Under the pieces are notes generated by a model, which saw nothing but the letters and a program-made list of their open reading frames with translations, made no database searches and was not told the DNA's origin. 64,000 nt of DNA from Microbispora corallina. GTDB lineage: Bacteria > Actinomycetota > Actinomycetes > Streptosporangiales > Streptosporangiaceae. The position numbers and the translations under genes are program-made. Shown here in pieces: positions 31,067 to 45,555 of the stretch. The stretch spans positions 1 through 64,000 of the forward strand of contig NZ_BOOC01000001.1 of assembly GCF_016863035.1 (NCBI RefSeq), in the 5' to 3' direction. How positions within the stretch are numbered: the first letter of the stretch is position 1; each line of letters opens with the position of its first letter.

Positions 31067-32821
31067 TCACACGTCCAGCGTGCACAGGACCTCGCCGTTG
31101 GCGACGGCCTGGCCCACCTTCACGGCCAGCCCCGCGACCCGGCCCGCCCGGTGCGCGAACATCGGCTGCTCCATCTTCATGGCCTCCAGGACGAACAGCA
31201 GCTCCCCCTCCTCGGCCGCCTCGCCGTCCTCCTTGAGGATCTTCACGATCGTGCCCTGCATGGGGCTCACGACCGCGCCCTCGGCCGCCGGGGCCCCGCG
31301 GCCCCCGCCGCCCCGCCGGGACGTCCTCCGCGCGGCGGGGGCCCTCCCCGCGGGCGCGGGCGCGGCGGCGCCGAGGCCCGCCGGCAGCACGACCTCCACC
31401 CGGCGCCCGTCCACCTCCAGCACGACGGTCTCGGTGCCGGCGACGGCGCCGGCCTCCCCCGGCGGCCCGGCGAACGGCTCGATCCCGCCGGCGAACTCCG
31501 TCTCGATCCACTGGGTGTGGACCTCCAGGTCGAAGGCGAACGCCGGGTCGTCCACCACGGCCCGGTGGAACGGCAGCGTGGTCGGCAGCCCGCCGATCTC
31601 GAACTCGGCGAGCGCGCGGCGGGCCCGGGCGAGGGCCTGCTCCCGGTCGCGCCCGGTCACGATCAGCTTGGCCAGCAGCGAGTCGAACGCCTGGCCGACG
31701 GTCGTGCCCTCCACGACTCCGGAGTCCAGGCGGACCCCCGGGCCGGCCGGCGGCCGCCAGCGGGTCACCGTGCCCGGGGACGGCAGGAAGTTCCGCCCCG
31801 GGTCCTCGCCGTTGAGCCGGAACTCGATCGAGTGGCCGCGCACCTCGGGGTCGCCGTAGCCGAGCCGCTCCCCCGCCGCGATCCGGAACATCTCCCGGAC
31901 CAGGTCGATGCCGGTGACCTCCTCGCTCACCGGGTGCTCCACCTGGAGGCGGGTGTTGACCTCCAGGAACGACACCAGGCCGTCCCGGGCCACGAGGAAC
32001 TCGCAGGTGCCGGCCCCGACGTACCCGGCCTCGCGCAGGATGGCCTTGGAGCTGTCGTACAGGACGCGCAGCTGGCCGGGGGTGAGGAACGGCGCGGGGG
32101 CCTCCTCGACCAGCTTCTGGTGGCGACGCTGCAGCGAGCAGTCGCGGGTGGAGACCACGACGACCTCGCCGTGCGCGTCGGCCAGGCACTGGGTCTCGAC
32201 GTGCCGGGGACGGTCGAGGTACCGCTCGGCGAAGCACTCCCCCCTCCCGAAGGCGGCGACCGCCTCCCGCACGGCGCTCTCGTACAGCTCCGGGATCTCC
32301 TCCAGCGTGCGGGCGACCTTGAGGCCCCGGCCGCCGCCGCCGTACGCGGCCTTGATGGCGACGGGCAGGCCGTGCCGCTCGGCGAAGGCCACCACCTCAG
32401 CGGCGCCGGAGACCGGGCCGGGGGTGCCCGGGGCGAGCGGCGCGCCCACCCGCGTGGCGATCCGCCGCGCCGACACCTTGTCGCCCAGCTCCATGATCAC
32501 GGCGGGCGGCGGGCCGATCCAGGTCAGCCCCGCGTCGATCACCGCCTGGGCGAAGTCGGCGTTCTCCGACAGGAACCCCCAGCCCGGATGGACGGCGTCC
32601 GCGCCCGACTTCAGCGCCGCGTCGAGCACCTTCCCCACGTCGAGGTAGCTGGTGGCGGGGGTGTCCCCGCCCAGGGCGAACGCCTCCCCCGCCAGTCGCA
32701 CGTGGGGAGCGCCGGCGTCCGGCGCCGCGTACACGGCGACGCTGTCGAGCCCCGCGTCCCGGCAGCCCCGGACCAGCCGGACCGCCACCTCGCCCCGGTT
32801 GGCGATCAGCACCTTGCGCAC
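31067..32821 (-). CDS. Acyl-CoA carboxylase alpha subunit (biotin carboxylase + BCCP)
   Basis: A 584-residue subunit. The biotin carboxylase domain starts [17 protein letters not shown] and has ATP-grasp motifs [13 protein letters not shown] and [15 protein letters not shown]. The biotin carrier domain is at the C-terminus, with EAMKMEQP holding the biotinylated Lys about 35 residues before its end. Such AccA-type proteins pair with a carboxyltransferase beta subunit and a small epsilon subunit to make malonyl-CoA or methylmalonyl-CoA. Here all three lie in one operon. GAGAGGAG precedes the GTG start. An Ala/Pro/Arg-rich linker joins the two domains. Confidence 0.95.
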
Positions 32822-32867
32822 CGCGTCTCCTCTCGGGTCTCCCCCTCGGACCGCCCGGTGACGGCGG

Positions 32868-33092
32868 TCACCACCACGTCTCCCGGTCCAGCCGCCAGCC
32901 GGCCTCCACCGACCAGCGGGGGCGGGGAGCGGGCCGCTCGGGCTCCCGGCCCTCCCGCGCCCGCCCGGACGCGGCCAGCACGGCCAGGACGGCGGCCAGC
33001 TGCTCGTCGGTCGGGGCGCCGCGCACGACCGCCGCAGGCTCGCGCACGACCGGCACGGGCTCGCGCCCGTCCGGCGCCGTCGCCGCGCTCAT
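32868..33092 (-). CDS. Acyl-CoA carboxylase epsilon subunit
   Basis: A 74-residue protein. Its start overlaps the accB stop (ATGA) and it precedes accA, the usual place for epsilon subunits. The sequence matches the pattern of AccE/PccE proteins: a variable N-terminus, then [15 protein letters not shown], and a C-terminal [15 protein letters not shown] with conserved Trp residues. These small subunits strengthen the alpha-beta complex in actinobacteria. Confidence 0.88.
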
Positions 33093-34684
33093 GCCGGGGG
33101 GTTGGCGTGCTTGCGGTGCGGCAGCACGGCCTGCTTGCCCCGGAGCGTGGCGAGGGCGCCGGCCAGCACCCTCCGGGTGTCCCTCGGGTCGATCACGTCG
33201 TCCACCAGGCCGCGCTCGACCGCGTAGTACGGGTGCATGAGCTCGGCCCGGTACTCGTCGATCAACTTGGCCCGGGTGGTCTCCGGCTCGGCCGCGGCGG
33301 CGATCTCCTTCCGGAAGATCACGTTCGCGGCGGCGTCCGCGCCCATGACCGCGATCTCGTTGGTCGGCCACGCGAACGACAGGTCGGCGCCGATCGAGCG
33401 GGAGTCCATGACGATGTACGCCCCGCCGTACGCCTTGCGGACGATCATCTGGATCCGCGGGACGGTGGCGGCGCAGTAGGCGTGCAGCAGCTTGGCGCCG
33501 TGCCGGATGACCCCGCCGTGCTCCTGGTCCGTGCCCGGCAGGAAGCCCGGCACGTCGACGAACGTCACCAGCGGGATGTTGAACGCGTCGCACATCTGCA
33601 CGAACCGCGCCGCCTTCTCCGAGGCGTGGATGTCGAGCACACCGGCCATCGACATCGGCTGGTTGGCGATGACGCCCACCACGTGCCCGTCGATCCGGGC
33701 CAGCGCGCAGATCACGTTGGCGGCCCACCGCTCGGAGAACTCCAGGAACTCGCCGTCGTCGACGATCTCCCCGACGACCTCGCGCATGTCGTACGGACGG
33801 CCGGCCTCGGCGGGCACGATGTCGAGCAGGGCCTCGCAGCGCCGGTCGGGCGGGTCGAGCGTCGGCGCGACCGGGGGGCTCTCCAGGTTGCTGGCGGGCA
33901 GCAGCGAGACGAGATACCGCACGTCCTCCAGGCAGCTCGTCTCGTCGTCGTGGACGAACGTGGCAACGCCCGAGCGGGTGGCGTGCACGTCGGCGCCGCC
34001 CAGGCCGTCCTGGCTGATCCGCTCGCCGGTGACCGCCTCCACCACGTCGGGGCCGGTGATGAACATCTGCGAGGTCTCGCGGACCATGAACACCACGTCG
34101 GTGAGCGCCGGGGCGTAGGACGCGCCGCCCGCGCATGGGCCGAGCATCACGCTGATCTGCGGGATCACGCCGGAGGCGCGGACGGTCCGCTGGAAGATGC
34201 CGCCGTAGCCCGCCAGGCCGGTCACGCCCTCCTGGATGCGGGCGCCGGCGCCGTCGTTGAGGCTGATGAGGGGGGCCCGGGCGGCGTACGCCAGGTCCAT
34301 CACCTTGTGGATCTTCTGGGCGTGCGCCTCCCCGAGGGAGCCGCCGAACACGCGGAAGTCGTGGGCGTAGACGAACACCCTGCGCCCGTCGATCGTGCCC
34401 CACCCGGTGACGACGCCGTCGCCGTACGGGCGGCGCTGCTCCATGCCGAACCCGGTCGCCCGGTGCCGGCGGAAGCCCTCGATCTCGGTGAACGAGCCGG
34501 GGTCGAGCAGGATCTCCAGGCGTTCGTGCACGGTGAGCTTCCCCCGTGCGTGCTGCGCCTCCGTCGCCCGCGCGCCCGGCCCATCGGCCAGCCGCCCGCG
34601 CATCCGGTCCAGCTCGGCGACCCGGCCCCGCATGGACGCGGGCGGGTCTTCGGCCACGACTTTCCTGTCGTCGAGCAGTGTCAT
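33089..34684 (-). CDS. Acyl-CoA carboxylase carboxyltransferase (beta) subunit
   Basis: A 531-residue carboxyltransferase with the N- and C-terminal crotonase-like halves of the AccB/PccB family. Visible motifs are GKLTVHERLEILLDPGSF at the N-terminus, GGIFQRTVRASGVIPQIS with the acyl-CoA oxyanion glycines, and VPGFLPGTDQEHGGVIRHGAKLLHA with KAYGGAYIVMDS in the second half. It moves the carboxyl group from biotin to the acyl-CoA. A residue that sets acetyl versus propionyl preference lies near 420 and cannot be judged safely here. It diverges from the luciferase-like gene. Confidence 0.95.
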   Translation of the reverse strand: MTLLDDRKVVAEDPPASMRGRVAELDRMRGRLADGPGARATEAQHARGKLTVHERLEILLDPGSFTEIEGFRRHRATGFGMEQRRPYGDGVVTGWGTIDGRRVFVYAHDFRVFGGSLGEAHAQKIHKVMDLAYAARAPLISLNDGAGARIQEGVTGLAGYGGIFQRTVRASGVIPQISVMLGPCAGGASYAPALTDVVFMVRETSQMFITGPDVVEAVTGERISQDGLGGADVHATRSGVATFVHDDETSCLEDVRYLVSLLPASNLESPPVAPTLDPPDRRCEALLDIVPAEAGRPYDMREVVGEIVDDGEFLEFSERWAANVICALARIDGHVVGVIANQPMSMAGVLDIHASEKAARFVQMCDAFNIPLVTFVDVPGFLPGTDQEHGGVIRHGAKLLHAYCAATVPRIQMIVRKAYGGAYIVMDSRSIGADLSFAWPTNEIAVMGADAAANVIFRKEIAAAAEPETTRAKLIDEYRAELMHPYYAVERGLVDDVIDPRDTRRVLAGALATLRGKQAVLPHRKHANPPA

Positions 34685-34759
34685 TCGCGAAGGCCTTTCG
34701 ACAATTCATCCGGGCATTCGCTGGAATGATTTCAAGAAGGGCCGCCGGGGCAAAGGAGA

Positions 34760-34797
34760 GTCACCCCTAGGAGGCATGCGCATATGTCTTAGGTGAC
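34760..34797. promoter_or_regulatory. Inverted repeat in the accB / LLM divergent promoter
   Basis: GTCACC (34760-34765) and GGTGAC (34792-34797) enclose a segment holding GCATGC and CATATG. It lies in the 188-bp gap between divergent accB and the luciferase-like gene and may bind a shared regulator. Confidence 0.35.
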
Positions 34798-34872
34798 ATG
34801 GCCCGCGACTCCGCGGAATGATGGGATCGACGCTGTGGAGAACACTGCCCGCAATACAGGAGGAGCCCCGTC

Positions 34873-35898
34873 GTGAGGATCGACTTCCACGGTGTCACCG
34901 TCGGGCCGGACGTCTTCGAGAATTGGTCGGCGCAGGCCGAGAAAATGGGCTACGGCGCCGTGTGGATGTCCGAGACCCAGCACGACCCGTTCGTGAGCCT
35001 CGCCGCCGCCGCACTGCGGACCGAGCAGGTGGACATACGGACCGGAATAGCGGTGGTGTTCGCCCGGAACCCCATGTCCACCGCGATCCTGGCGAACGAC
35101 CTCCAGTTGCTGTCGCGCGGCCGGTTCGCCCTCGGGATCGGGTCGCAGTTGCAGAGCCACATCACCCGGCGGTTCTCGATGCCGTGGTCCCGGCCGGCCG
35201 CCCGCATGCGGGAGTACGTGCTGGCCCTGCACGCCATCTGGGACTGCTTCGAGGACGGCGGCCGGCTGCGGTTCCGGGGGGAGTTCTACCGCCACACCGT
35301 CATGAGCCCGTTCTTCAACCCCGGGCCCAACCCGTACGGACGGCCGCGCGTGCTGGTCGCCGGCGTGGGCGAGAAGATGACCGAGCTGGCCGGCGAGCTG
35401 TCCGACGGCTTCCTGGCGCACATCATCGCCACCCGGAAGGTCCTCGACGAGGCGACGATGCCGCTGCTGCGCGCCGCCCGAGAGCGGGCCGGGCGCACCA
35501 TGGACGGCTTCGAGCTGCACGTCACCCCCATCGTGGCGACCGGGGCCGACGAGCGGGAGTACGAGACGGCCGTCGCCCGGGCCCGGTCCACCATCGCGTA
35601 CTACGCCTCGATCCCGAGCTACGCGCCGGTCTTCGACCTGCACGGCCTGAGCGGCCTGTGCGAGGAGCTCTACCGGCTCGCGGCGAGCGGGCGGTCGTCG
35701 GAGATGCCCGGCCTGGTCGACGACGAGGTGCTCGACACGTTCGCGGTCACGGGCGAGCCGAAGGAGGCCGCCCGCAAGATCCACGAACGGTTCGCCGATC
35801 TCGCGACCAGCGTCGCGTTCTTCCAGCGCGACGACGAGAAGGCCCCCGAGGGGTGGCAGCCCCTCTACGACGAGCTGCGGCACCTGCTCGGGGCTTGA
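34873..35898 (+). CDS. Luciferase-like (LLM) F420- or flavin-dependent oxidoreductase
   Basis: A 341-residue TIM-barrel oxidoreductase of the bacterial luciferase-like class: MRIDFHGVTVGPDVFENWSA, GYGAVWMSETQHDPFVSLAA, TGIAVVFARNPMSTAILANDL, LQLLSRGRFALGIGSQ and VAGVGEKMTELAGELSDGFL. In actinobacteria most of these use F420 as hydride donor. The GTG start has a strong GGAGGAG site. It diverges from the carboxylase operon and could act as a reductase or dehydrogenase on the polyketide or butenolide product. Cofactor and substrate are inferred only from the family. Confidence 0.85.
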   Translation: MRIDFHGVTVGPDVFENWSAQAEKMGYGAVWMSETQHDPFVSLAAAALRTEQVDIRTGIAVVFARNPMSTAILANDLQLLSRGRFALGIGSQLQSHITRRFSMPWSRPAARMREYVLALHAIWDCFEDGGRLRFRGEFYRHTVMSPFFNPGPNPYGRPRVLVAGVGEKMTELAGELSDGFLAHIIATRKVLDEATMPLLRAARERAGRTMDGFELHVTPIVATGADEREYETAVARARSTIAYYASIPSYAPVFDLHGLSGLCEELYRLAASGRSSEMPGLVDDEVLDTFAVTGEPKEAARKIHERFADLATSVAFFQRDDEKAPEGWQPLYDELRHLLGA

Positions 35899-35910
35899 GG
35901 GGAAACACGA

Positions 35911-35939
35911 GAGGGGCTCCGGCGATCCCGGGGCCCCTC
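35911..35939 (+). terminator. Hairpin after the LLM gene
   Basis: GAGGGGCTCCGG (from 35911) pairs with CCGGGGCCCCTC (ending 35939) with one mismatch, starting 13 nt after the stop codon. Confidence 0.65.
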
Positions 35940-35977
35940 GTTCCGTCTCCGGCCCCTGTTCCGAGAGGCCCGCGTCT

Positions 35978-36016
35978 GGAGCCCGGACGCCGAGGAGCCC
36001 GGACGCCGAGGAGCCC
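35978..36016. repeat. 16-bp tandem repeat (GGAGCCCGGACGCCGA), about 2.4 copies
   Basis: Units start at 35978 and 35994, with a partial third at 36010 that runs into the terminator hairpin. It lies between convergent genes and looks like slippage of terminator sequence. Confidence 0.7.
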
Positions 36017-36040
36017 GGTCCCCGTACGGGACCGGGCTCC
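36010..36040. terminator. Strong bidirectional hairpin
   Basis: GGAGCCCGGTCCC (36010-36022) pairs perfectly with GGGACCGGGCTCC (36028-36040) around CGTAC, between the LLM gene and the convergent afsA-type operon. Confidence 0.85.
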
Positions 36041-36062
36041 TCTGTGGGTGGGGTGCGGCGGA

Positions 36063-36566
36063 TCAGGCCTGGGCCTCGGCGGCGTCGGCCGGGGTCACGT
36101 GCTCGGGGGCGAACAGGCCCAGCTCGCGCAGCAGGGTGAGCTCGTCCCTGGCCCCCCAGTGCTCGACGGCCTGGCCGTTCTCCACCCGGTAGAAGTGCAG
36201 GTGCTGGATCTCGAACTCCTTGCCCGTGGGCGGCACCCCCAGGAAGTCGCCGGTGTGGCGTCCGCTGAACGTCACCCGGCAGGCGAACTTGTCGCCCTCG
36301 GAGATGAAGTCGTCCACCTGCCAGCGCGCGTCGGAGAACGCCGAGCGCATGTACCGGGCGGTCGCCAGGTACCCCTCGGGGCCGCCGCCGACACCCTCCG
36401 ACGCCTCGTGGTCGACGAAGTCCGGCGCGATGTAGCGGTGCGCCGCCTCCTCGTCGAGCTCGCCGAAGACCTTGGCGATGCCGATCGCCACCTCGAGGAC
36501 CTGCTGCGCGGCGTCCGGCGGGCGCTCCTCGAGCGGCGCCAGCATCTCCTGGACCTCGTCAGCCAT
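36063..36566 (-). CDS. SnoaL-like ester cyclase/NTF2-fold protein
   Basis: A 167-residue SnoaL-like protein: AHRYIAPDFVDHEASEGVG, WQVDDFISEGDKFACRVTFSGRHTGDFLGVPPTGKEFEI and LHFYRVENGQAVEHWG. The VDH and EHWG motifs are those of the SnoaL ester cyclase family, which catalyses aldol-type ring closure in polyketide pathways, though many members act elsewhere. It is the last gene of the afsA-HAD-reductase operon, 47 bp after the reductase stop. It is not closely similar to the two SnoaL-like proteins at 8.9-10 kb. Confidence 0.82.
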   Translation of the reverse strand: MADEVQEMLAPLEERPPDAAQQVLEVAIGIAKVFGELDEEAAHRYIAPDFVDHEASEGVGGGPEGYLATARYMRSAFSDARWQVDDFISEGDKFACRVTFSGRHTGDFLGVPPTGKEFEIQHLHFYRVENGQAVEHWGARDELTLLRELGLFAPEHVTPADAAEAQA

Positions 36567-36580
36567 GCTCGTCCCTCTCT

Positions 36581-36600
36581 TCGCAGTCGTTCGCAGTCGT
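36581..36600 (-). repeat. Perfect 10-bp tandem duplication (TCGCAGTCGT x2)
   Basis: Two adjacent copies lie in the 47-bp gap between the reductase gene and the SnoaL-like gene, just upstream of its ribosome binding site. Confidence 0.75.
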
Positions 36601-36613
36601 TTCTGAGGCGCTC

Positions 36614-37318
36614 TCAGTGACCCAGTCCCTGGCCGCCGCTGACCGGGACGAGGGCGCCGGTGATGAAGCTCGCCTCGTCGCTCGCGAGGAAGCGCACCAC
36701 CGGCGCGACCTCCTCCGGCCGGCCCGACCTGCGCAGCGCGGTGATCCCGTGCAGGTACGCCCGGTGCTGGTCGGTGAGGCCCGACACCATGTCGGTCTCG
36801 ATGAGACCGGGGTAGACGACGTTCACGGTGATCTTGCGGGGGCCGAGCTCCCAGGCCAGCGTGCGGGCGAAGCCCATGAGCGCCGCCTTGGACGCCGAGT
36901 AGTTGGTGACGCCGGGCGAGCCCCAGAACGCGGTGGTCGAACCGATCATGATGATCCGCCCCCAGCGGGCCTTCACCATGTCGTGGACGGCGCAGCGGGC
37001 GGCCCGCACCGTGCCCATGAGGTTCGTGTCGATCACCGCGGCGAAGTCCTCCTCGGACATCGCCAGGAAGAGGTTGTCCCTGGTCGTGCCGGCGTTGGCC
37101 ACCAGCACCTCGACCGGCCCCTGCTGGGCCCTGACCTCCTCGAAGGCCCGCTCCACCGAGGCCGAGTCGGTCACGTCGCAGCGGACGCCGAACAATCCCT
37201 CCGGGGGCTCGCCCGACCGGTAGGTGATCGCGACCTTGTCGCCGTTGTCGGCGAACGCGCGGGCGATCGCGAGGCCGATGCCCCGGTTCCCGCCCGTGAC
37301 CAGAACAGAACGGGTCAT
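36614..37318 (-). CDS. SDR-family 3-oxoacyl reductase (FabG-like)
   Basis: A 234-residue short-chain dehydrogenase. The NADPH-binding GGNRGIGLA (about 9-17), NAG, the catalytic Ser in MIGSTTAFWG, and YSASKAALMGFARTLAWE with Tyr and Lys are all present, as is NVVYPGLIETDM. The closest family by eye is FabG. It overlaps the HAD gene (ATGA). Two roles are possible: ketoreductase of the polyketide synthase opposite, or the ketone reductase that finishes a gamma-butyrolactone (ScbB/BarS1-like). The FabG-like sequence favours the first. Confidence 0.9.
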   Translation of the reverse strand: MTRSVLVTGGNRGIGLAIARAFADNGDKVAITYRSGEPPEGLFGVRCDVTDSASVERAFEEVRAQQGPVEVLVANAGTTRDNLFLAMSEEDFAAVIDTNLMGTVRAARCAVHDMVKARWGRIIMIGSTTAFWGSPGVTNYSASKAALMGFARTLAWELGPRKITVNVVYPGLIETDMVSGLTDQHRAYLHGITALRRSGRPEEVAPVVRFLASDEASFITGALVPVSGGQGLGH

Positions 37319-37965
37319 ATGGCCACTCCTAGGTGCTCGTTGAGGGCGGCGACGGCCTCGGCCGTACCGGTGAAGTGGACGGCCCGCCACCCGGCGGCGC
37401 GGGCGCCGTCGCAGTTCTTCGGCAGGTCGTCGACGAACAGGGACAGCCCGGCCGGGACGCCGGAGCGCTCCACGGCCAGGTCGAAGATGCGCCGGTCGGG
37501 CTTGCGGCAGCCGACCTCGAAGGACAGCACGACGTCGTCGAACAGCTCCGCCGGGTCGACCATCCGCCGCCAGTGCAGGTCCCAGGCGGGGACCATGTTG
37601 GACAGCATCCCGACGAACAGCCCGCGCTCCCGCAGGCCGCGCAGCGCGGCGACCCACTCGGCGTTGGCCTCGCGGCCGTCGAACCACGCGTCGGCGAGGG
37701 TCGTCAGGCGCATCTCGACGCCGTGGTCGGCCCGCAGCACCTCGCCGATCTGCGCGACCCACTCCGGCTCGCTCACGAGGGGGGTGTCGATCGGCAGCAT
37801 GATGTCGTCGGTGCCGTACGACGCGGTGACCTTGAGGATGGCGTCGATGAGCGCCTCCTGCGGCAGGTCGTGCGCGGCGCAGAACCGGGCCATCGTCACG
37901 CTGATGGGCGGGGTGAGCACCCCGCCGAAGTCGGTCCAGACCGCCGCCACCGGCTCCGCCGTCAT
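37315..37965 (-). CDS. HAD-superfamily phosphatase, likely butenolide-phosphate phosphatase
   Basis: A 216-residue HAD hydrolase. Motif I is AVWTDFGGVLTPP with the nucleophile Asp, motif II is MLSNM, motif III is the Lys in VGCRKPDRRIFDLAVERSG, and motif IV is LFVDDLPKNCDGARAAG. It lies between an AfsA-type synthase and a reductase with stop-start overlaps on both sides. In methylenomycin furan and gamma-butyrolactone pathways a phosphatase removes the phosphate left by dihydroxyacetone phosphate (MmfP in the furan pathway is HAD-type). That role is inferred from context. Confidence 0.85.
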   Translation of the reverse strand: MTAEPVAAVWTDFGGVLTPPISVTMARFCAAHDLPQEALIDAILKVTASYGTDDIMLPIDTPLVSEPEWVAQIGEVLRADHGVEMRLTTLADAWFDGREANAEWVAALRGLRERGLFVGMLSNMVPAWDLHWRRMVDPAELFDDVVLSFEVGCRKPDRRIFDLAVERSGVPAGLSLFVDDLPKNCDGARAAGWRAVHFTGTAEAVAALNEHLGVAI

Positions 37966-38918
37966 CGCCCCGCCTCCCCGCTCAGCCGCAGCCGCATCTC
38001 GGCCACGATCCCGTCGCCCTGCGCGAACCTGACCTCGACCGCGCCGCCGGGCCCGGCCTCCGCCTCCGCGACGCAGGGCAGGTCCAGCTCGGCGAAGCGC
38101 AGGAAGCGCCCCGACACCTCGTACGGCACGGCCTCGTCGCCGGCCAGGACGACGGCGAGCTGGCGGGCCGCCTCGGCCAGGGTGGTGGCGGGCAGGTGGT
38201 CGTACTCGTGGTCGAACAGCGACCGGTTGGCGAACGAGGGCGCGACCAGCGCCCGCGCCCGTCGCGGTGCGCGCTCCACGTCCGCGACGACGACGTTCAG
38301 CGGGTTGCTGCGGCCCACCTCGTGGGGCAGCGCGCGCGACACGCCCTCCGGGTCGCCCAGGTCGCGGGTGGACGGCGCGGGCGTGCCCCGCATGAGCCGC
38401 CGCAGGGCCTCGTGCTCGCCCGGCGTGACGACGTTGACCTCCATCGTGTGCACGCCGGCCGGCTCGCCGTCCAGGACGAGGTCCTGGGTGACCGAGCCGG
38501 TCCGCACCCGGCCGCCGCGCGTCCTGCGGGCGTCGAACCGGTTGTCGATGCGCAGCTCGCCGGGCAGGTGCCCGGCGAGGAGCGGGCCGTCGAGCGTGAT
38601 CGTGAAGCTCGCGACCATCATCATCGCCCGGGGCGGCAGGCCCAGCAGGTGCGCGCCCGCGATGCCGGCCTGCCGGCCGGCCTCCAGCACCAGCAACGGG
38701 TCGAACACAGCGGGCCGCGCGGTGTGGTCGCTGTAGTAGCCGTGGCTGAGCGGAAGCTGCGCCGCGGCCAGGAACCGGGCCTCGCCGGCCGGGCGGATAT
38801 CGGTCACGAAGACCTCGGCGACCGAGGCGCGGTGCACCAGAGCGCGGTCGATCGTGCGACCGAAACTCAGCTCCACCGGCTCGGCGAGATCGGCGACGGC
38901 TTCCGTTGTGGCCGCCAT
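37962..38918 (-). CDS. AfsA-family butenolide / gamma-butyrolactone synthase
   Basis: A 318-residue protein with two AfsA hot-dog repeats. The first reads LVHRASVAEVFVTD, RFLAAAQLPLSHGYYSDH and FDPLLVLEAGRQAGIAGAHLLGLP. The second reads ANRSLFDHEYDHLPATTLAEAARQ. AfsA-type enzymes (AfsA, ScbA, BarX, MmfL) condense a beta-ketoacyl thioester with dihydroxyacetone phosphate, the committed step to butyrolactone and furan signals. I chose the ATG at 38918 after GGGGGG. It is the first gene of a four-gene operon (HAD, SDR, SnoaL follow) and diverges from the ACP-ketosynthase operon. No ArpA-type receptor gene is visible in the window. Confidence 0.92.
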   Translation of the reverse strand: MAATTEAVADLAEPVELSFGRTIDRALVHRASVAEVFVTDIRPAGEARFLAAAQLPLSHGYYSDHTARPAVFDPLLVLEAGRQAGIAGAHLLGLPPRAMMMVASFTITLDGPLLAGHLPGELRIDNRFDARRTRGGRVRTGSVTQDLVLDGEPAGVHTMEVNVVTPGEHEALRRLMRGTPAPSTRDLGDPEGVSRALPHEVGRSNPLNVVVADVERAPRRARALVAPSFANRSLFDHEYDHLPATTLAEAARQLAVVLAGDEAVPYEVSGRFLRFAELDLPCVAEAEAGPGGAVEVRFAQGDGIVAEMRLRLSGEAGR

Positions 38919-39014: not shown

Positions 39015-39097
39015 ATCCGTTCCCTTGTTCCTCGGGAGGGCCGGTGGTTAACGTCGTCGGCGAGAAACGGTCGGATATTGAGAAGGGGAATCCGCGA

Positions 39098-39364
39098 ATG
39101 ACTGTTGATGTCAGCGCCCTGCAGGAGAAGATTCGCGACATCATCGAGCAGGAACTCGAGCTGGAGCCCGGCGAGCTCACCGGGTCGGGTCATTTCATCG
39201 ACGAATACGACGCGGACTCGCTGTCGCTCATCACGATTCTCGCCCGGATCGAGAAGGAGCTCGGCGTCGCGGTTCCGCAGGACGAGCTGCCGAACATGCC
39301 GAACCTGGACGGCGTCTACGCCGTGGTCACGAAGGTCGCCGGCCGGGAGCCCCAGAATGCCTGA
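39098..39364 (+). CDS. Acyl carrier protein
   Basis: An 88-residue carrier protein with the phosphopantetheine site YDADSLSLITILARIEKELGV (Ser41), preceded by LQEKIRDIIEQELELEPGEL. It is acidic, as expected. GAAGGGG lies before the ATG at 39098; an upstream start in frame would add 18 residues that do not fit. It overlaps the ketosynthase by 8 bp. As the first gene of the ACP-KS-KS-like-HadA-HadB operon it is the dedicated carrier of a type II synthase. Confidence 0.93.
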   Translation: MTVDVSALQEKIRDIIEQELELEPGELTGSGHFIDEYDADSLSLITILARIEKELGVAVPQDELPNMPNLDGVYAVVTKVAGREPQNA

Positions 39365-40571
39365 CCGGCGCGTCGCCGTTACCGGCCTGGGGGCGGTGAG
39401 CTGCATCGGCACCGGTGTCGAGGCGTTCACCGCCGCCATCCGGGAAGGGAGGAACGGCGCCTCCGAGATCTCGAGCTTCGACACGGACGGCTTCCCCTAC
39501 ACGGTGGCCTGCGAGGTCAAGGACTTCGAGCCGGAACGGCTGCTGCGGCGGATCGACACCGCCCGGTGGGGCCGCAGCGCGCTGTTCGCGGCCGCGGCCG
39601 CCCGGCTCGCGGTGGAGGACTCCGGCCTCGACCCCGGCGACCTGTCGGCCGCGCGGACCGGGTCCATCATGGGCACCACGGCCGGCGAGTCGCAGGTGCT
39701 CATGGAGGTCGTCGACCAGTGGATGAGCCAGGGCCTCAAGGCCGTGGACCCCCGCCTGGTGCCGATGGCCCCGGCCAGCCAGATCGCCAACGCGGTCAGC
39801 GCCGAGCTGCACCTGACCGGGGACTCGCAGACGATCCCCACGGCCTGCTCCGCGAGCAACATGGCCCTCGGCTACGCGTACGACCTCGTGCGGACCGGGC
39901 AGGCCGACTTCATGCTGGCGGGCGGCGCCGACGCGGTGAACCGCTCGTGCCACGCCGGGTTCTACCGGCTTGGCGCGCTCGCCGAGAAGGTCTGCCGGCC
40001 GTTCGACGTGAACCGCTCCGGCATCCTCACCGGTGAGGGCGGCGCCGTCCTCGTGCTGGAGCCCCTGGAGCACGCCCAGGCCCGCGGCGCGCGGATCTAC
40101 GGCGAGGTGCTCGGCTACGGCGTCAACTGCGACGCAAAGCACATGGTGAACCCGGACGCGTCCAGCTTCGCCGAGTGCATCCGCATCGCCCACCGGTTCG
40201 CCGGGGTCGAGGCCTCCCAGGTCGGTTACATCTCGGCCCACGGCACCGGGACGCGGACCAACGACATCACCGAGGTCACCGCGGTCCGGGAGGCGTTCGG
40301 CGATCACATCCCGCCGATCAGCTCGGTCAAGTCCATGATCGGGCACACGATGGGCGCGGCCAGCGCCTTCGGCGCCATCGCCTGCCTCAAGGCGATCCAG
40401 GAGGGCTTCCTGCCCCCCACCGCCAACCTGGAGGAGCTGGACCCGGCCCTCGGCCCCGGCCTGGACGTCGTGCCGAACGTGGCCCGGCCCGGCCGGGTCG
40501 ACGTCGCGCAGAACCAGGGACTCGCCTTCGGAGGCAACAACGTGGTGACCGTCTTCGGGAGGGTGGCATGA
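39357..40571 (+). CDS. Beta-ketoacyl-ACP synthase (KS-alpha / FabF-like)
   Basis: A 404-residue condensing enzyme. The catalytic Cys lies in TIPTACSASNMALGYAYDL (about residue 164) and the two His in SAHGTGTRTNDITEV (about 295) and SMIGHTMGAASAFGAI (about 330). The end VAQNQGLAFGGNNVVTVF is the conserved FGGxNxxxxF. All catalytic residues are intact, so it should carry out decarboxylative condensation with malonyl-ACP. The partner gene that follows is a dead ketosynthase, the KS/CLF pattern of type II polyketide synthases. Confidence 0.94.
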   Translation: MPDRRVAVTGLGAVSCIGTGVEAFTAAIREGRNGASEISSFDTDGFPYTVACEVKDFEPERLLRRIDTARWGRSALFAAAAARLAVEDSGLDPGDLSAARTGSIMGTTAGESQVLMEVVDQWMSQGLKAVDPRLVPMAPASQIANAVSAELHLTGDSQTIPTACSASNMALGYAYDLVRTGQADFMLAGGADAVNRSCHAGFYRLGALAEKVCRPFDVNRSGILTGEGGAVLVLEPLEHAQARGARIYGEVLGYGVNCDAKHMVNPDASSFAECIRIAHRFAGVEASQVGYISAHGTGTRTNDITEVTAVREAFGDHIPPISSVKSMIGHTMGAASAFGAIACLKAIQEGFLPPTANLEELDPALGPGLDVVPNVARPGRVDVAQNQGLAFGGNNVVTVFGRVA

Positions 40572-41683
40572 CGGCCGGCGCGGCGGTGGCCGCGCCGGTC
40601 CGGCCGCTCCTCGTCACCGGGTGCGGGGTGGTCTCCCCCGCGGGCGTGGGGCTGGCCCCGCTGGCCGGGGCGCTGGAGAGCGGCCCCGCCGCCCCGGGCG
40701 CCCCGGAGGACTCGCCCGACGGGTACCCCCCGCAGCCGCTGTGGGCGCTGCCCGAGCTCCCGGTCGCCGAGCACCTCGGCACCAAGGGGCTGCGCCACGT
40801 CGACCGGTTCACGCTCATGGCCCTGATCGCCTGCCGGTCGGCGCTGCGGCAGGCGGGCGCCGAGGGCGACGGCGCGGACATCGGCGTGGTCGTCGCCACC
40901 AGCACGGGCAGCCTGCGGACGCTCTCGGAGGTCGCCTGCGACACCGTGCTGCAGGAGAAGCCGTACATGGTCAACCCGGGGAACTTCCCCAACGTGGTCA
41001 TGAACGCCTGCGGCGGCCAGATCGCGATCAAGAACGGCCTGCGGGCCGTCAACTCCACGATCTCCGGCGGCCAGGTGTCGAGCCTGGCGGCCGTCCGGTT
41101 CGCCCGTACGGCGATCGAGGGCGGCCGCGCCTCCCGCGTGCTCGTCGGCGGCGTGGAGGAACTGGTGCCGATCTCGGCCTGGGGCTGGCACCTGTCGCAG
41201 GCCCTGGACGCGGAGGCGCCGATCGGCGAGGGCACGGCCATGTTCCTCCTCGAGGACGCCGAGGCGGCCCGGGAGGCCGGCCGCACCGGGCTGGCCGAGG
41301 TGCTGGCCTGCGAGGTCGGCTACCACGGCGTGGACGACGCCGACGGCAGGGCCCGCGGCCTGGCCGCGTGCGTCGGGCGGGCGCTGTCGCGCAGTGGAGT
41401 CCTCCCCGACGAGGTGGACGTGGTCTCCGTGGGCGCGGCGGGGCACCGGGACATGGAGGCCGTCGAGGAGCGGGCGCTGCGCGCCGCGCTGGGCCGCGAC
41501 GTCCCCCTGATCCGGGCCGCCACCGCCGTGGGCGAGTGCTACAGCGCCAGCGGCGCCCTGCAGCTGGCCGCGCTGCTCGCCTCCTGGCAGGAGGCCCCGG
41601 ACGGCGACCCCCGCACCGGCCTCGTGACCAGCGTGGGCGACGACGGCAACGTGGGCTGCCTGGTGGTGCGCCGATGGCTCTGA
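40568..41683 (+). CDS. Catalytically inactive ketosynthase-like partner (chain-length-factor-like)
   Basis: A 371-residue thiolase-fold protein coupled to the KS (ATGA overlap). The N-terminus LLVTGCGVVSPAGVGL and the fold pattern match ketosynthases, but the active Cys position reads NSTISGGQ. The HGTGT motif is replaced by GAAGHRDMEA and the GHTxGA motif by GECYSASGA, so all three catalytic residues are altered. In aromatic type II systems the partner CLF has lost the Cys and sets chain length. This protein probably does likewise. It is shorter than typical CLFs and quite diverged. Confidence 0.82.
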   Translation: MTAGAAVAAPVRPLLVTGCGVVSPAGVGLAPLAGALESGPAAPGAPEDSPDGYPPQPLWALPELPVAEHLGTKGLRHVDRFTLMALIACRSALRQAGAEGDGADIGVVVATSTGSLRTLSEVACDTVLQEKPYMVNPGNFPNVVMNACGGQIAIKNGLRAVNSTISGGQVSSLAAVRFARTAIEGGRASRVLVGGVEELVPISAWGWHLSQALDAEAPIGEGTAMFLLEDAEAAREAGRTGLAEVLACEVGYHGVDDADGRARGLAACVGRALSRSGVLPDEVDVVSVGAAGHRDMEAVEERALRAALGRDVPLIRAATAVGECYSASGALQLAALLASWQEAPDGDPRTGLVTSVGDDGNVGCLVVRRWL

Positions 41684-42144
41684 ACGTCGCGTGCGTCGGC
41701 AAGAGCTACCCGCCCAGCGAGCCGTACGAGGTGGGGCGGGAGAAGATCTGGGAGTTCGCGAACGCGATCCGCGACCCCAACCCCGTCTACCGGGACCCGG
41801 AGGCGGCGCGGGCGCACGGCCACCCGGACGTCATCGCCCCGCCGAGCTTCCCCATGGTGATCTCGCTGGAGGCCGAGCGCCAGGTCGTGTACGACCCGGA
41901 GCTCGGCGCCCGGAACCAGGTGCGGTTCGTCCACCGGGAGCAGCGGTTCGCCTACCGGCGGCCGATCCGCGCCGGGGACGTCCTCACCGTGACGGTCTCC
42001 ATCGCGGCCATCGACATCATCGGTGACAACGACGTCATCACGTTCGAGAGCCGGATCGACGCCGGGGGCGACGAGCACGTGTGCACGGCGAAGTCGACGT
42101 TCGTCATGTTCGATCCCGAGAGGAAGGGCGAGCCCGCACCATGA
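41674..42144 (+). CDS. HadA-like MaoC N-terminal dehydratase subunit (first copy)
   Basis: A 156-residue hot-dog protein: VGKSYPPSEPYEVGREKIWEFANAI, DVIAPPSFPMVISLEA and VHREQRFAYRRPIRAGDVLTV. It matches the non-catalytic, substrate-binding subunit (MaoC_dehydrat_N) of the (R)-3-hydroxyacyl dehydratase HadAB of mycobacteria and relatives. The start overlaps the KS-like stop by 10 bp and the end overlaps the HadB-like start. It probably dehydrates beta-hydroxyacyl-ACP in the polyketide cycle. Confidence 0.9.
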   Translation: MALNVACVGKSYPPSEPYEVGREKIWEFANAIRDPNPVYRDPEAARAHGHPDVIAPPSFPMVISLEAERQVVYDPELGARNQVRFVHREQRFAYRRPIRAGDVLTVTVSIAAIDIIGDNDVITFESRIDAGGDEHVCTAKSTFVMFDPERKGEPAP

Positions 42145-42593
42145 CCACGGTCATCACCCGTCCGGCGCCGGCCAGGCGCCGCTACGACGACGTGGAGCCC
42201 GGCACGAGGCTCCCGGGCCGCACCGTCACGGTCCAGCGCGGGGACCTCGTCCGGTACGGCGGGGCCTCGTGCGACTACAACACGATCCACTGGGACGAGC
42301 GGACGGCCGAGGCCATCGGCCTGCCGCACCCCATCGCACACGGCATGTTCACCATGGCCCTCGCCCTGTCCGTGGTCTCGGACTGGGCGGGCGACCCGGC
42401 GGCCGTCGTCGACTTCGGCGGCCGCTTCCCCCGGCTGGTCCCCGTGCCCAACGACGGGAAGGGCGTCCTGCTGGAGGTCGAGGCCGTCGTGGTGGAGAAG
42501 CTCGAGGCCCCGAACGTGCGGGTCAGCGTCGCCGTCCGCCTGGACGGCGCGAAGGTGCTCACGATGCCGCGGACGATCGTAGCCCTGGCATAG
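42141..42593 (+). CDS. HadB-like MaoC dehydratase, catalytic subunit (first copy)
   Basis: A 150-residue hydratase-2-type protein. The catalytic Asp and His are in GGASCDYNTIHWDE, followed by GLPHPIAHGMFTMALALSVV. Paired with the preceding HadA-like protein it should remove water from (R)-3-hydroxyacyl-ACP to give a trans double bond. It ends the five-gene operon that starts with the ACP. Its last 35 bp overlap the convergent SARP gene. Confidence 0.91.
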   Translation: MTTVITRPAPARRRYDDVEPGTRLPGRTVTVQRGDLVRYGGASCDYNTIHWDERTAEAIGLPHPIAHGMFTMALALSVVSDWAGDPAAVVDFGGRFPRLVPVPNDGKGVLLEVEAVVVEKLEAPNVRVSVAVRLDGAKVLTMPRTIVALA

Positions 42594-43344
42594 GGCGCGT
42601 CCCCACCTCGAGGATCTCCCGCTGCAGGCGGCGCACCTCGGGCGAGGGCTCCAGCCCCAGCTCCCGGTCGAGCACCCTGCGCAGGTCGTGGAAGGCGGTC
42701 AGCGCCTCCCCCCGCCGGCCCACCCTGTGCAGGGTCTCGATCAGCCGGGCGTGGAACCACTCGTTCAGCGGATTGGCCGCCACCAGGCCCCGCAGCTCGC
42801 CCACCAGCTCCCGGTGGCGGCCCAGCCGCATGTCGGCCTCGATCCGCAGCTCGAGCGCCCTGATCCGCGCCTCCTCCAGCTGGGCGAGGTGGCGGGTCAG
42901 GACGGGGCCGCAGGCCACGTTGCCGAGCGGCCTGCCCCGCCACAGGGCGAGCGCCTCGCGCAGGACGGCCGCCCCCTCGGCCGTCTCCCCCCGGGCGACC
43001 CCGGCCGCCCCGCGCTCCGCGAGCCGCCGGAACCGCTCGGCGTCGACCTGCTCCCCCGCCACCTGCAGCACATATCCGGTGGGCTCGGTCAGCAGCGGCG
43101 CCGGAGGGTCGCCGTCGGCCCCCAGAAGCCGGCGCAGCCGGTAGACGTGCGTGTGCAGCGACTGCAGGGCCGTCCGCGGCGGCGCGTCCTCCCACAGCTC
43201 CTCGACCAGCGTCTCCACCGGGACGACCTGGCCCGGCCGCATCAGCAGCAGGGCGAGGACCTGACGGACCTTGGGCCCCGGCGGTATCACCACGCGGTTT
43301 CCTGAACGTATCGCCAACGAGCCGAGAACAGTGAAAATACGCAT
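42559..43344 (-). CDS. SARP-family pathway activator
   Basis: A 261-residue regulator with the two SARP domains: an OmpR-type DNA-binding N-terminus (FTVLGSLAIRSGNRVVIPPGPKV, LWEDAPPRTALQSLHTHVYRLRRLL) and a bacterial transcriptional activation domain (HLAQLEEARIRALELRIEADMRLG, NEWFHARLIETLHRVGRRGEAL). SARPs are pathway-specific activators of antibiotic and signal clusters. The ATG at 43344 follows GGGAG; that site sits in the loop of a potential CCAATT/AATTGG hairpin. It lies between the two HadAB pairs, facing the first. Confidence 0.94.
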   Translation of the reverse strand: MRIFTVLGSLAIRSGNRVVIPPGPKVRQVLALLLMRPGQVVPVETLVEELWEDAPPRTALQSLHTHVYRLRRLLGADGDPPAPLLTEPTGYVLQVAGEQVDAERFRRLAERGAAGVARGETAEGAAVLREALALWRGRPLGNVACGPVLTRHLAQLEEARIRALELRIEADMRLGRHRELVGELRGLVAANPLNEWFHARLIETLHRVGRRGEALTAFHDLRRVLDRELGLEPSPEVRRLQREILEVGTRPMPGLRSSAAS

Positions 43345-43583
43345 TTCCAATTTCTCCCGAATAATTGGGATCGTATGGTGCCTGGTCCTCGGTGTTCGAT
43401 CCGAACGTAATCAGGAGCCCCCACCTGGCTGCAACGCCGGGACCCTCAAGTGCCGCCAAAGACGCAGCACCATGCGCCTTTCGGGGCATCGATTACCTCC
43501 CAAGTGACATCCCGTCAGCCTCGAAGAGAAGTCCATATCCCGATAAAGTCGGAAACCGGTCTGCCATCTCGAAAGGAAGCCCG

Positions 43584-44012
43584 ATGCCGCTGAATCCGGC
43601 GTTCAAGGGCCGGGTCTACCCGCCGACCGAGCCGTACGAGGTCGGCCGCGAGAAGATCCGCGAGTTCGCCGAGGCGATCGGCGAGCCCGACCCCGCCGCG
43701 GACCCGGACGGCCCGGTGGTCGCGCCCCCGACGTTCGCGATCGTGCTCACGATGCGGGCCGAGCGGCAGGCGGTGTTCGACCCCGAGCTCGGGCTCGACC
43801 TGTCCCGCCTGCTCCACCGGGAGCAGCGGTTCGACTACACCCGCCCGATCGTGGCCGGCGACCGGCTCACGGTCACCGTGCGGGTCGAGGACGTGGGCGG
43901 CGCCGGTCCCGCCGACGTGCTGACCCTGTCCAGCGCCGTGACCACGACGGGCGGCGAGCACGTCTGCACGGCCACCGCCACGCTCGTGACCATGGGAGAC
44001 GAGGATGCCTGA
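43584..44012 (+). CDS. HadA-like MaoC N-terminal dehydratase subunit (second copy)
   Basis: A 142-residue protein: FKGRVYPPTEPYEVGREKI, VVAPPTFAIVLTMRAERQAVFDPEL and LHREQRFDYTRPIVAGDRL. It is clearly similar to the protein at 41.7-42.1 kb and has the same order of a HadA-like then a HadB-like gene. GAAAGGAAG lies before the ATG. The stop lies inside the following HadB-like gene. The 239 bp upstream hold the divergent SARP promoter. Confidence 0.9.
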   Translation: MPLNPAFKGRVYPPTEPYEVGREKIREFAEAIGEPDPAADPDGPVVAPPTFAIVLTMRAERQAVFDPELGLDLSRLLHREQRFDYTRPIVAGDRLTVTVRVEDVGGAGPADVLTLSSAVTTTGGEHVCTATATLVTMGDEDA

Positions 44013-44436
44013 CGTCCCGCGCTACTCGGCCGTCCGGGTCGGGGACCGGCTGCCCCGCCTCACCCACCCGATCCGCCGCTACGACCTGGTCCGCTACGCC
44101 GGCGCCTCGGGAGACTTCAACCCCATCCACTGGAGCGAGAGCGCGGCCGAGGGGGCCGGGCTGCCCGGCCTCGTCGCCCACGGCATGCTCACCTTCGGCG
44201 TGGCGATGCGCCTGGTGAACGAGTGGGCGGGCCGCCCCGGGCGGGTGAGCGGCTGCGGCGCCCGGTTCACCCGGCCCGTCGTCGTGCCCGACGGGTACGA
44301 CGGCACCGAGGTGGTGGTGGAGGGGGTCGTGGCCGAGAAGCTGCCCGGCTCCCGGGTGCGGATCGACCTGACCGTGCGGCACGGCGGCGAGAAGGTGCTC
44401 GCCCGCCCGCGCGCCGTGGTCGCGCTCGACGACTGA
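44005..44436 (+). CDS. HadB-like MaoC dehydratase, catalytic subunit (second copy)
   Basis: A 143-residue hydratase-2-type protein with catalytic Asp and His in GASGDFNPIHWSES, and GLVAHGMLTFGVAMRLVNEWAG. It overlaps the HadA-like gene by 8 bp. Together they form a second complete dehydratase. Two dehydratases in one pathway suggest different chain lengths or different double-bond positions. A 66-bp gap leads to the lactonase gene. Confidence 0.91.
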   Translation: MPDVPRYSAVRVGDRLPRLTHPIRRYDLVRYAGASGDFNPIHWSESAAEGAGLPGLVAHGMLTFGVAMRLVNEWAGRPGRVSGCGARFTRPVVVPDGYDGTEVVVEGVVAEKLPGSRVRIDLTVRHGGEKVLARPRAVVALDD

Positions 44437-44502
44437 CGACCCGACCGGCGGGCCCGAGCGGCGGGCCCGGCCGAGAGCGACGACGAGGAAGGCCCGGCTG
44501 CA

Positions 44503-45555
44503 ATGCGACTGTTCGTCGGCGGATACTCCTGGACCGAGACCCTCGCCAGGGGCGTGCGCGTCGTGATGACCGATCCCGCGACCGGCGGGCTGGTGCTCAC
44601 CGGCTCGTTCACCGACATCCCCAACCCCTTCCACCTGCTGCCGTCCCCTTCGGGGCGGACGCTCTACGTGGCCGCCAACGTGCCGGACGGCCGGGTGCAC
44701 GTCCTCGGCGTCGGGCGGCACGGCTCGCTGGAGCACCGGGGCGAGCGCCCGGCCCTCGGCGCCGGCACCGTCCACCTGTCCCTGCACCCGTCGGGACGGC
44801 ACCTGCTCGCGGTCAACCACGACTCGGGCGAGGTCGTCGTCTTCCCCGTGGAGGACGACGAGCTGCTCGGCCCGGCCGTGGACGTCGTGCGCCACGACGG
44901 GAAGGGCCCCGACCCGGTCAATCAGGCCGGGCCCCACCCGCACATGACCGCGACCGACCACACCGGGACGTTCGTCCTCGTGCCGGACAAGGGCGACGAC
45001 CACGTCCACGTGTACCGGTTCTCCGCGTCCAGCGGGCACCTGTCGGCCCTCGGACGGACCCACCTCGGCGAGGGCGTCGGCCCGCGCCACCTCGTCTTCC
45101 ACCCCTCGGGCCGGTACGTCTACGTCGTCGGCGAGCTCCAGCCGGTCATCGTGGTGTGCGGCTTCGACACGTCCGGGGCCCTGTGGCCGCTGGGCTCGGT
45201 GCGCACGGTGCCCGACGAGGCGGACGGCTGGATCGCGCCCTCCGCCATCGTGATCTCGGCCGACGGGCGGTACGTCTACGCGGCCAACCGGGGCCACGAG
45301 AGCGTGGCCGTCTTCGAGGTGGCCGCCGGGGGCGCGGTGCTGAAGCGGACCGGGGAGCACCGGTTCGGCGACCCGTTCACCACCATGCCGTGGGACCTGC
45401 TCGTCGATCCCTCGGGCACGGTCGTGTACGTGGCCAACCAGATGGCGGGGACGGTCGCCGCGCTGTCCGTCGACCCGGAGACGGGCCTGCTGGGGGCGCT
45501 GGGCGCGCCGGTGGCGGTGCCCGACGCGGCCTGCCTGGTGGCCGCGCCCGCCTGA
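44503..45555 (+). CDS. Beta-propeller lactonase family protein (6-phosphogluconolactonase-like)
   Basis: A 350-residue seven-bladed propeller of the lactonase family: MRLFVGGYSW, PSGRTLYVAANV, LHPSGRHLLAVNHDSGEV, VNQAGPHPHMTATD, VGPRHLVFHPSGRYVYVVGEL, ADGRYVYAANRGHESVAVFE and DPSGTVVYVANQMAGTVAAL. The His-rich GPHPHM and the blade repeats are typical. Members hydrolyse 6-phosphogluconolactone or act as carboxylactone hydrolases, and many have unknown substrates. Its place downstream of an AfsA-type locus makes hydrolysis of a lactone signal or product possible, but this is inference. No signal peptide is seen. Confidence 0.87.
   Translation: MRLFVGGYSWTETLARGVRVVMTDPATGGLVLTGSFTDIPNPFHLLPSPSGRTLYVAANVPDGRVHVLGVGRHGSLEHRGERPALGAGTVHLSLHPSGRHLLAVNHDSGEVVVFPVEDDELLGPAVDVVRHDGKGPDPVNQAGPHPHMTATDHTGTFVLVPDKGDDHVHVYRFSASSGHLSALGRTHLGEGVGPRHLVFHPSGRYVYVVGELQPVIVVCGFDTSGALWPLGSVRTVPDEADGWIAPSAIVISADGRYVYAANRGHESVAVFEVAAGGAVLKRTGEHRFGDPFTTMPWDLLVDPSGTVVYVANQMAGTVAALSVDPETGLLGALGAPVAVPDAACLVAAPA

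Follow-up and report, generated by a model that had tools for sequence, protein, structure and literature searches.

A type II polyketide synthase cluster of Microbispora corallina with a putative AfsA-type chain-releasing enzyme

The stretch of DNA analysed here, called the window, comprises 64,000 nucleotides from Microbispora corallina (contig NZ_BOOC01000001.1, positions 1 to 64,000) and contains a cluster in which genes for a type II polyketide synthase (PKS) lie next to a gene for an AfsA-type enzyme. Gene starts were picked from the reading frames and then checked against Pfam and NCBIfam. A plus-strand run (39098-42593) encodes a dedicated acyl carrier protein (ACP; 39098..39364; PP-binding, 44 bits) with a DSL phosphopantetheine motif, a ketosynthase (KS; 39357..40571), a chain-length factor (CLF; 40568..41683) and the HadA-like (41674..42144) and HadB-like (42141..42593) subunits of a dehydratase. 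Divergent from it, a minus-strand run (38918-36063) encodes the AfsA-type enzyme, presumed to be a phosphorylated-butenolide synthase (37962..38918, with 38924 as another possible start), a HAD-superfamily hydrolase presumed to be a butenolide-phosphate phosphatase (37315..37965; Pfam Hydrolase, 43.8 bits), a FabG-like 3-oxoacyl-ACP reductase (36614..37318; adh_short_C2, 194 bits) and a SnoaL-like protein (36063..36566; Pfam SnoaL, 121 bits). Most genes overlap their neighbours within a run by 4-10 bases: ACP/KS by 8 bp, KS/CLF by 4 bp, CLF/HadA by 10 bp and HadA/HadB by 4 bp on the plus strand, and AfsA/HAD, HAD/FabG and, in the carboxylase run described further below, accB/accE by 4 bp each on the minus strand. 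A gene for a SARP regulator (42559..43344, minus strand; Pfam BTAD, 158 bits) is followed by a second HadA-like and HadB-like pair (43584..44012 and 44005..44436, plus strand). All genes named in the original prediction, which had listed accB-accE-accA, an ACP-KS-dead KS-HadA-HadB operon, a second HadAB, a SARP and a divergent group of FabG-like reductase, HAD phosphatase and AfsA-type enzyme, were recovered with Pfam and NCBIfam where it had placed them.

The KS matches both halves of the ketoacyl-synt family (N 138 and C 112 bits), and alignment indicates that the catalytic residues C164, H295 and H330 as well as K325 are intact. Among solved structures it is nearest to the ishigamide KS Iga11 (6kxd_A, 379 bits), followed by 9s5h_B (346 bits), whereas FabF proteins reach at most 287 bits. 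Its score with the NCBIfam fabF model is 376 bits, under the cut-off of 494, and with the AmcF model 188 bits (cut-off 325). Two FabF-like KSs encoded elsewhere in the host genome share 31-34% identity with it; on the basis of this identity and of the fabF score, an assignment as primary FabF was rejected. The phylogenetic comparison with FabF that had been proposed as a check came out in the same sense, as the two host FabF-like KSs fall on a long separate branch and Iga11 is the nearest solved chain. The second KS-like protein gives weak ketoacyl-synt matches (55 and 29 bits), and its nearest solved chain is 6kxd_B (138 bits). Where the KS has Cys164, His295 and His330, it carries Gln, Gly and Glu, and none of 23 aligned CLF rows has the catalytic residue at any of these three positions. 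Because Gln stands in place of the catalytic Cys, this protein is, judged by its residues, a chain-length factor and not a decayed KS. Sequence comparison thus supports a dedicated PKS that is distinct from the two FabF-like KSs of the host, and the traits looked for in a highly reducing type II PKS were found, namely an intact KS nearer to Iga11 than to FabF, an inactive CLF, and an ACP, a FabG and two HadAB pairs of the cluster's own.

Both HadA proteins match the Pfam FAS1_DH_region (101 and 94.6 bits) and both HadB proteins match MaoC (70.7 and 80.3 bits). The two HadB proteins keep the Asp and His residues; the motif of pair 1 is altered (SCDYNTIHW) and that of pair 2 is kept as SGDFNPIHW. 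FabG scores 323 bits with the NCBIfam model mycolic_FabG1, under the cut-off of 420. Neither HadAB nor FabG of the cluster can be the sole copy of the host, as a separate HadAB, whose subunits share 48-52% identity with those of the cluster, is located at C5:159.7-160.3 kb and a FabG 61% identical to that of the cluster (L212) at C28. Among the cluster genes covered by the scan there was no dedicated enoyl reductase.

The AfsA-type protein matches Pfam AfsA over two stretches (103.5 bits, cut-off 24). Alignment reveals two hotdog repeats with residues shared by the family, and a structure model (pLDDT 88) consists of two strand-helix-strand halves; among solved structures no sequence relative was found (best E 0.43). 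Eighteen residues that are invariant or nearly so in both PKS-linked and other AfsAs are kept in the protein of the window.

The same arrangement recurs in other genomes. In six loci, here called type A, a block consisting of a gene for an F420-type LLM (luciferase-like monooxygenase) oxidoreductase, SnoaL-FabG-HAD-AfsA, ACP-KS-CLF-HadA-HadB, SARP and HadA2-HadB2 is present throughout; these are the window and loci from Planotetraspora (G176), a genome of the window's genus (G070), Streptosporangium carneum (G210), Nonomuraea jabiensis (G291) and S. saharense (G195). Of the 14 other genomes listed for the window's genus, one (G070) carries the locus, so that its distribution is patchy. In a sample of 297 genomes of the order, searches gave 58 AfsA hits, and the best 42 CLF hits were used. 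The 18 AfsA hits scoring 188 bits or more all have a CLF hit no farther than 1.9 kb away, whereas none of the 40 weaker ones lies within 6 kb of these best 42 CLF hits, which bears out the co-occurrence of AfsA with KS-CLF-ACP for which the original prediction had suggested a search. Seen from the CLF side, 18 of the 27 hits above 200 bits have an AfsA within 6 kb; of the other nine, three are second copies within AfsA clusters, at a distance of 7.1-8.4 kb, and six lack AfsA, one of these being at the edge of a contig. In a sample of the class (394 genomes, 70 AfsA hits), read by eye, the five best AfsA hits (at least 196 bits) adjoin a CLF and none of the remaining 65 is near any of 24 CLF hits.

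When a species-genome collection was scanned more widely with the CLF alignment, 78 loci were obtained from the best 80 of 150 matches, and 30 of these loci contain an AfsA gene. The AfsA-bearing loci span Streptosporangiaceae, Thermomonospora, Kutzneria, Goodfellowiella, Amycolatopsis, Nocardia, Nocardiopsis and relatives, Streptomyces and Streptacidiphilus. With locus L064 added, gene content was counted for 31 AfsA-containing loci by BLAST with a threshold of 1e-5 and a distance to the CLF of no more than 10.5 kb; several contigs are shorter. ACP, KS, CLF and a FabG-like short-chain dehydrogenase/reductase (SDR) are present in all 31, and a HAD gene in 30, the lone miss (L130) ending just past AfsA; SnoaL was found in 16, HadAB in 12, KAS III-like genes in 11 and the LLM oxidoreductase in six. 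The 48 AfsA-free CLF loci have an SDR in 37 cases, a HAD gene in one and HadAB in none. The same core occurs in several layouts, either divergent, or with the AfsA run downstream on the other strand, or colinear as ACP-KS-CLF-AfsA. The association of AfsA with KS-CLF, HAD and SDR is conserved across genera. Of the colinear loci, two were scanned (L127 and L142), and in both AfsA is directly followed by a HAD that belongs to a different Pfam family (PF12710), which suggests repeated recruitment of a phosphatase; the constancy of the HAD partner, whichever of the two families it comes from, speaks for a phosphorylated intermediate. As HadAB is present in just 12 of the 31 loci, the common core is ACP-KS-CLF-AfsA-HAD-SDR without the HadAB dehydratase. 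The description of the PKS as highly reducing therefore holds in part: the window has two HadAB pairs with intact Asp and His and a full reducing cycle is plausible there from the genes present, but such a cycle is not a trait common to the family. The coupling of AfsA to the PKS is better supported than the highly reducing character.

Some further features of these loci were noted. The first HadB of type-A clusters (window, L064, L103) has SCDYNTIHW or ARDYNPIHW instead of SGDFNPIHW and is perhaps a specialised dehydratase. Loci L163, L171 and L179 from Streptomyces and Streptacidiphilus have the layout ACP-KS-CLF-AfsA-HAD-SDR. An acyltransferase was noted in L163, and both L163 and L171 carry a second AfsA that groups with ordinary AfsAs. 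Close KS-CLF relatives without AfsA are found in L080-L085, several of them beside another carboxylase set. A PQQ (pyrroloquinoline quinone)-type beta-propeller gene occurs in six AfsA-PKS loci, next to SnoaL where mapped (L103 3715-5304, L107 3298-4953); in the window there is no room for it between the SnoaL and LLM genes.

Trees were built by a quick method with SH-aLRT support only, after dropping repeats of the same gene and proteins of <250 amino acids. In the KS tree (86 rows), the 31 AfsA-linked KSs and the window's KS fall in one clade of 43 rows (SH-aLRT 99), and linkage to AfsA, treated as a label, takes five changes as compared with a mean of 25 after shuffling. In the AfsA tree (62 rows, root not placed), 32 PKS-linked AfsAs lie on one side of a branch with SH-aLRT 98, and 28 other AfsAs together with two second AfsAs from PKS loci lie on the opposite side. 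Kutzneria, a member of the Pseudonocardiaceae, groups with Streptosporangiaceae in both trees, which suggests movement of the cluster as a unit. Second FabG-ACP-KS-CLF sets, with 42-44% CLF identity, were seen in L068 (13.1-16.5 kb), L070 (3.6-6.4 kb) and L073 (2.8-5.4 kb), and their KSs group outside the AfsA-linked clade.

From this gene content it is probable that the window's own type II PKS builds the chain of a butenolide-type natural product, with AfsA releasing the chain by means of dihydroxyacetone phosphate (DHAP) and the HAD protein dephosphorylating the product. AccABE would provide malonyl-CoA, and KS-CLF would lengthen an ACP-bound starter drawn from primary metabolism, rounds of reduction by FabG and dehydration by HadAB giving an alkenyl or polyenyl chain. 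The final condensation would be left unreduced, and the resulting beta-ketoacyl-ACP would be attacked in AfsA by DHAP, freeing the chain as a phosphorylated ester or 2-acyl-butenolide. As a guess from family chemistry, SnoaL is a candidate cyclase that would close the ring by intramolecular aldol reaction, and the F420-type LLM oxidoreductase is, on the same grounds, a candidate enoate or butenolide reductase of a double bond; phosphate would be taken off by the HAD protein, and MFS and MmpL proteins would serve in export. On balance, we also favour the broader view that such loci, with KS-CLF-ACP, an AfsA group of their own, HAD and SDR in several layouts, constitute a separate class among the type II PKSs of Actinomycetota, in which a discrete phosphorylated-butenolide synthase would release chains in place of hydrolysis or spontaneous cyclisation, giving alkenyl or polyenyl butenolides or furans to which ScbR-type receptors do not respond.

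Several observations weigh against this reading. HadAB is missing from 19 of the 31 AfsA-PKS loci (the flanks covered reach about 10 kb at most and some contigs are short), and these loci were gathered by CLF similarity and are not a random draw; since the family core lacks HadAB, the degree of chain reduction is the chief doubt. Furthermore, the AfsA-linked KS clade also takes in 11 of the 47 AfsA-free KSs, three of their loci (L113, L117, L164) being cut by contig ends, so that this KS type does not require AfsA, and the AfsAs of L163, L171 and L179 sit on a long branch (1.8), which makes their place in the PKS-linked group less sure. It is possible, and in our view unlikely, that KS-CLF carries out just a single condensation or a few, without reduction, on a starter derived from fatty acids or from a KAS III and so delivers a plain beta-ketoacyl-ACP to AfsA, with the SDR acting after AfsA like SabD in SAB biosynthesis and HadAB acting elsewhere or in the window's sub-type only. 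The scarcity of HadAB would suit such short chemistry, as would the KAS III-like genes of 11 loci and the near-universal core of HAD, SDR and AfsA, which corresponds to the SabA, SabP and SabD set described in the available text of PMC7756379; moreover, FabG overlaps HAD, which overlaps AfsA, and lies outside the KS-CLF run, and the cispentacin pair AmcF-AmcG is described as carrying out a single C2 extension (PMC10698177, available text). In the window, however, the HadAB frames overlap those of KS-CLF, both HadAB pairs keep Asp and His, FabG is of the fatty acid synthase FabG type by its mycolic FabG1 score, and KS and CLF are nearest, among solved chains, to the polyene-making Iga pair.

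The AfsA homologue might also act without joining DHAP, as a double hotdog protein catalysing another thioester reaction (dehydration, isomerisation, hydrolysis or attack by another nucleophile). Its score of 167.2 bits with the NCBIfam model ScbA_BarX_GamBu is under the cut-off of 200, which leaves it short of ScbA/BarX membership, and PKS-linked AfsAs have group-specific changes (N231, Y239, A244, A276) by the C-terminal hotdog motif: N231, Y239 and A276 are present in all 32 as compared with 17 other AfsAs, and at the position of N231 16 of these 17 have His. Both features count against the proposed release step in that they would allow a different nucleophile or reaction. Nevertheless, the 18 shared residues are kept and the HAD partner is consistent, and we regard a reaction of this type as very improbable. 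Improbable, too, is an arrangement of two neighbouring but separate pathways, in which AfsA, HAD and FabG would make a gamma-butyrolactone hormone from fatty-acid chains that turns on an unrelated polyene PKS. In its favour, AfsA genes situated close to PKS clusters commonly have a regulatory role, AfsA-HAD-FabG form a divergent run of their own and a SARP is present, but in the colinear layout AfsA follows ACP-KS-CLF on the same strand, and PKS-linked AfsAs group together in the tree. The distribution of receptors argues in the same direction. Classical AfsA genes are frequently neighbours of a gene for an ScbR-type receptor. In a comparison of 13 genomes, with receptors called at E <=1e-35, an ScbR-type receptor lies within 3 kb of none of 13 PKS-linked AfsAs as against 16 of 22 other AfsAs (Fisher p 1.9e-5), and within 10 kb of one of the 13; when three doubly entered genomes, none with such a receptor, are added, the counts are 0/16 and 16/24 (p 1.2e-5). 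In the window's genome no ScbR-family protein exceeds the cut-off (best 89 bits, cut-off 150), four of the five other type-A genomes have no ScbR-type receptor, and that from Planotetraspora has one on another contig. The absence of such receptors near PKS-linked AfsAs counts against the designation of the enzyme as a signal synthase, which was not upheld. An unrelated receptor for the cluster product may exist; for the product itself, a role as end product is more likely than one as a hormone sensed by ScbR.

In the AfsA-dependent signal pathways of Streptomyces, the acyl chain is taken to come from primary metabolism. The pathways for A-factor/SCB, MMF and SAB/SRB (AfsA, ScbA, MmfL, SabA-SabP-SabD) resemble the window in their set of AfsA, phosphatase and reductase; for SAB, the available text of PMC7756379 states that AfsA, phosphatase and ketoreductase are needed, which is the trio of the window's divergent run. 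They differ from the PKS-linked loci in the ScbR-type receptors near ordinary AfsAs described above. In the gladiostatin/gladiofungin trans-acyltransferase PKS of Burkholderia gladioli, as described in the accessible parts of two reports (PMC7756379, PMC7756420), an AfsA-family unit takes the place of a thioesterase domain and releases a beta-ketothioester polyketide with the C3 unit DHAP, and phosphatases are proposed to act afterwards; the AfsA-like phosphorylated-butenolide synthase domain was found there to release 3-ketothioesters with DHAP in vitro (PMC7756379). AfsA off-loading itself is therefore not new, as this precedent in modular PKSs exists. Unlike that domain of a modular assembly line, AfsA of the window is a discrete protein combined with a type II KS-CLF-ACP.

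Highly reducing type II PKSs are described as consisting of KS-CLF, ketoreductase and dehydratase (PMC10698177, available text). The ishigamide system (6KXD) shares KS-CLF-ACP, ketoreductase and dehydratase with the window (KS 379 bits, CLF 138 bits), but the window adds AfsA and HAD as release genes, its dehydratase is HadAB of MaoC type (comparison with Iga being limited to KS and CLF) and Iga11 lies on a long branch outside the AfsA-linked KS clade. The KS-CYF pair of cispentacin/coronafacic acid biosynthesis (AmcF-AmcG) likewise combines a KS with an inactive partner outside aromatic type II PKSs; it differs in its single extension and cyclisation, in an adenylating starter enzyme, which was not seen among the cluster genes scanned, and in that the window's KS scores higher with fabF models (376 bits). 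In the salinipostin/cyclipostin spt cluster, the AfsA homologue Spt9 is said to sit beside KS/ACP genes. A literature search over titles and abstract openings, covering few subscription papers, found no paper describing AfsA with a type II KS-CLF, and AfsA, butenolide and butyrolactone do not occur in the main text of two overviews of type II PKSs (PMC12664062, PMC10132072). Chain release in type II PKSs has been called poorly understood (PMC7492732, available text). If the proposed reading is true, a conserved and separately encoded release enzyme would stand alongside thioesterases and spontaneous release as a further route, which in addition installs a butenolide, and an enzyme family associated with hormones would be linked to other chemistry. 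The set ACP-KS-CLF-AfsA-HAD-SDR is a usable handle for genome mining, with named strains.

The minus-strand run accB-accE-accA (34684-31067) encodes a carboxyltransferase (accB, 33089..34684; Pfam Carboxyl_trans, 642 bits), an acyl-CoA carboxylase epsilon subunit (accE, 32868..33092; Pfam ACC_epsilon, 36.6 bits, cut-off 25; no match in NCBIfam) and a biotin carboxylase with biotin carboxyl carrier (accA, 31067..32821; Pfam Biotin_carb_N/C, CPSase_L_D2, Biotin_lipoyl). AccB has Ile (GGAYIVM) at the position of PccB Asp422, which marks the type that accepts acetyl-CoA, whereas a PccB-like paralogue (L203) has GGAYDVM; on the strength of this Ile, a carboxylase of the propionyl-only type was rejected. 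An Ile-type enzyme from Streptomyces coelicolor is described as taking acetyl-, propionyl- and butyryl-CoA (PMC7835884, available text). A supply of malonyl-CoA to the PKS by AccABE is thus plausible, and one of methylmalonyl-CoA may be compatible as well. Of the claim that the cluster has its own malonyl-CoA supply, the specificity residue of AccB type is supported. The genome holds another Ile-type paralogue (L205).

Between the carboxylase run and the AfsA-HAD-FabG-SnoaL run lies the plus-strand gene for the F420-type LLM oxidoreductase (34873..35898; TIGR03617, 415 bits, cut-off 278). Downstream of the second HadAB, Pfam identified a 7-bladed beta-propeller lactonase family protein (44503..45555, plus strand), a MerR regulator (45635..46264, minus strand), an MFS transporter (46359..47771, minus strand) and an exporter of the MMPL family (MmpL; 47871..50045, plus strand). 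The lactonase gene is present in four of the six type-A loci, as are accA/accB, and MerR, MFS and MmpL are present in five, the contig ending in the sixth. Because MerR, MFS and MmpL hold their position in syntenic loci, the cluster, as judged from gene order, is larger than first described and reaches about 50,045, beyond 45555; these three genes, the lactonase, the SnoaL-like protein and the LLM oxidoreductase had been absent from the earlier account. A Pfam scan of the 20 genes from 31067 to 50045 found no plain thioesterase, in agreement with that account, the sole thioesterase-like match being a borderline one of HadA to the hotdog family 4HBT_2 (25.5 bits, equal to the cut-off of 25.5).

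On the other side, a minus-strand gene for an FAD (flavin adenine dinucleotide)-linked oxidase (29540-31060), cytokinin-dehydrogenase-like and with a twin-arginine-like N-terminus, starts 6 bases past accA (60 with the next start). It was rejected as a conserved cluster member, as no match (E 1e-3) was found in the 4.4-4.8 kb behind accA of three other accA-bearing syntenic loci, and there was no counterpart either in the remaining syntenic loci or in the loci of the CLF scan. Farther out, a plus-strand segment (22969-25160) holds a gene for an LppX/LprG-type lipoprotein directly followed by one for an MFS transporter, and the region is flanked by two pairs of sensor kinase and LuxR-type response regulator (25260-27154, minus strand; 51440-53108, plus strand).

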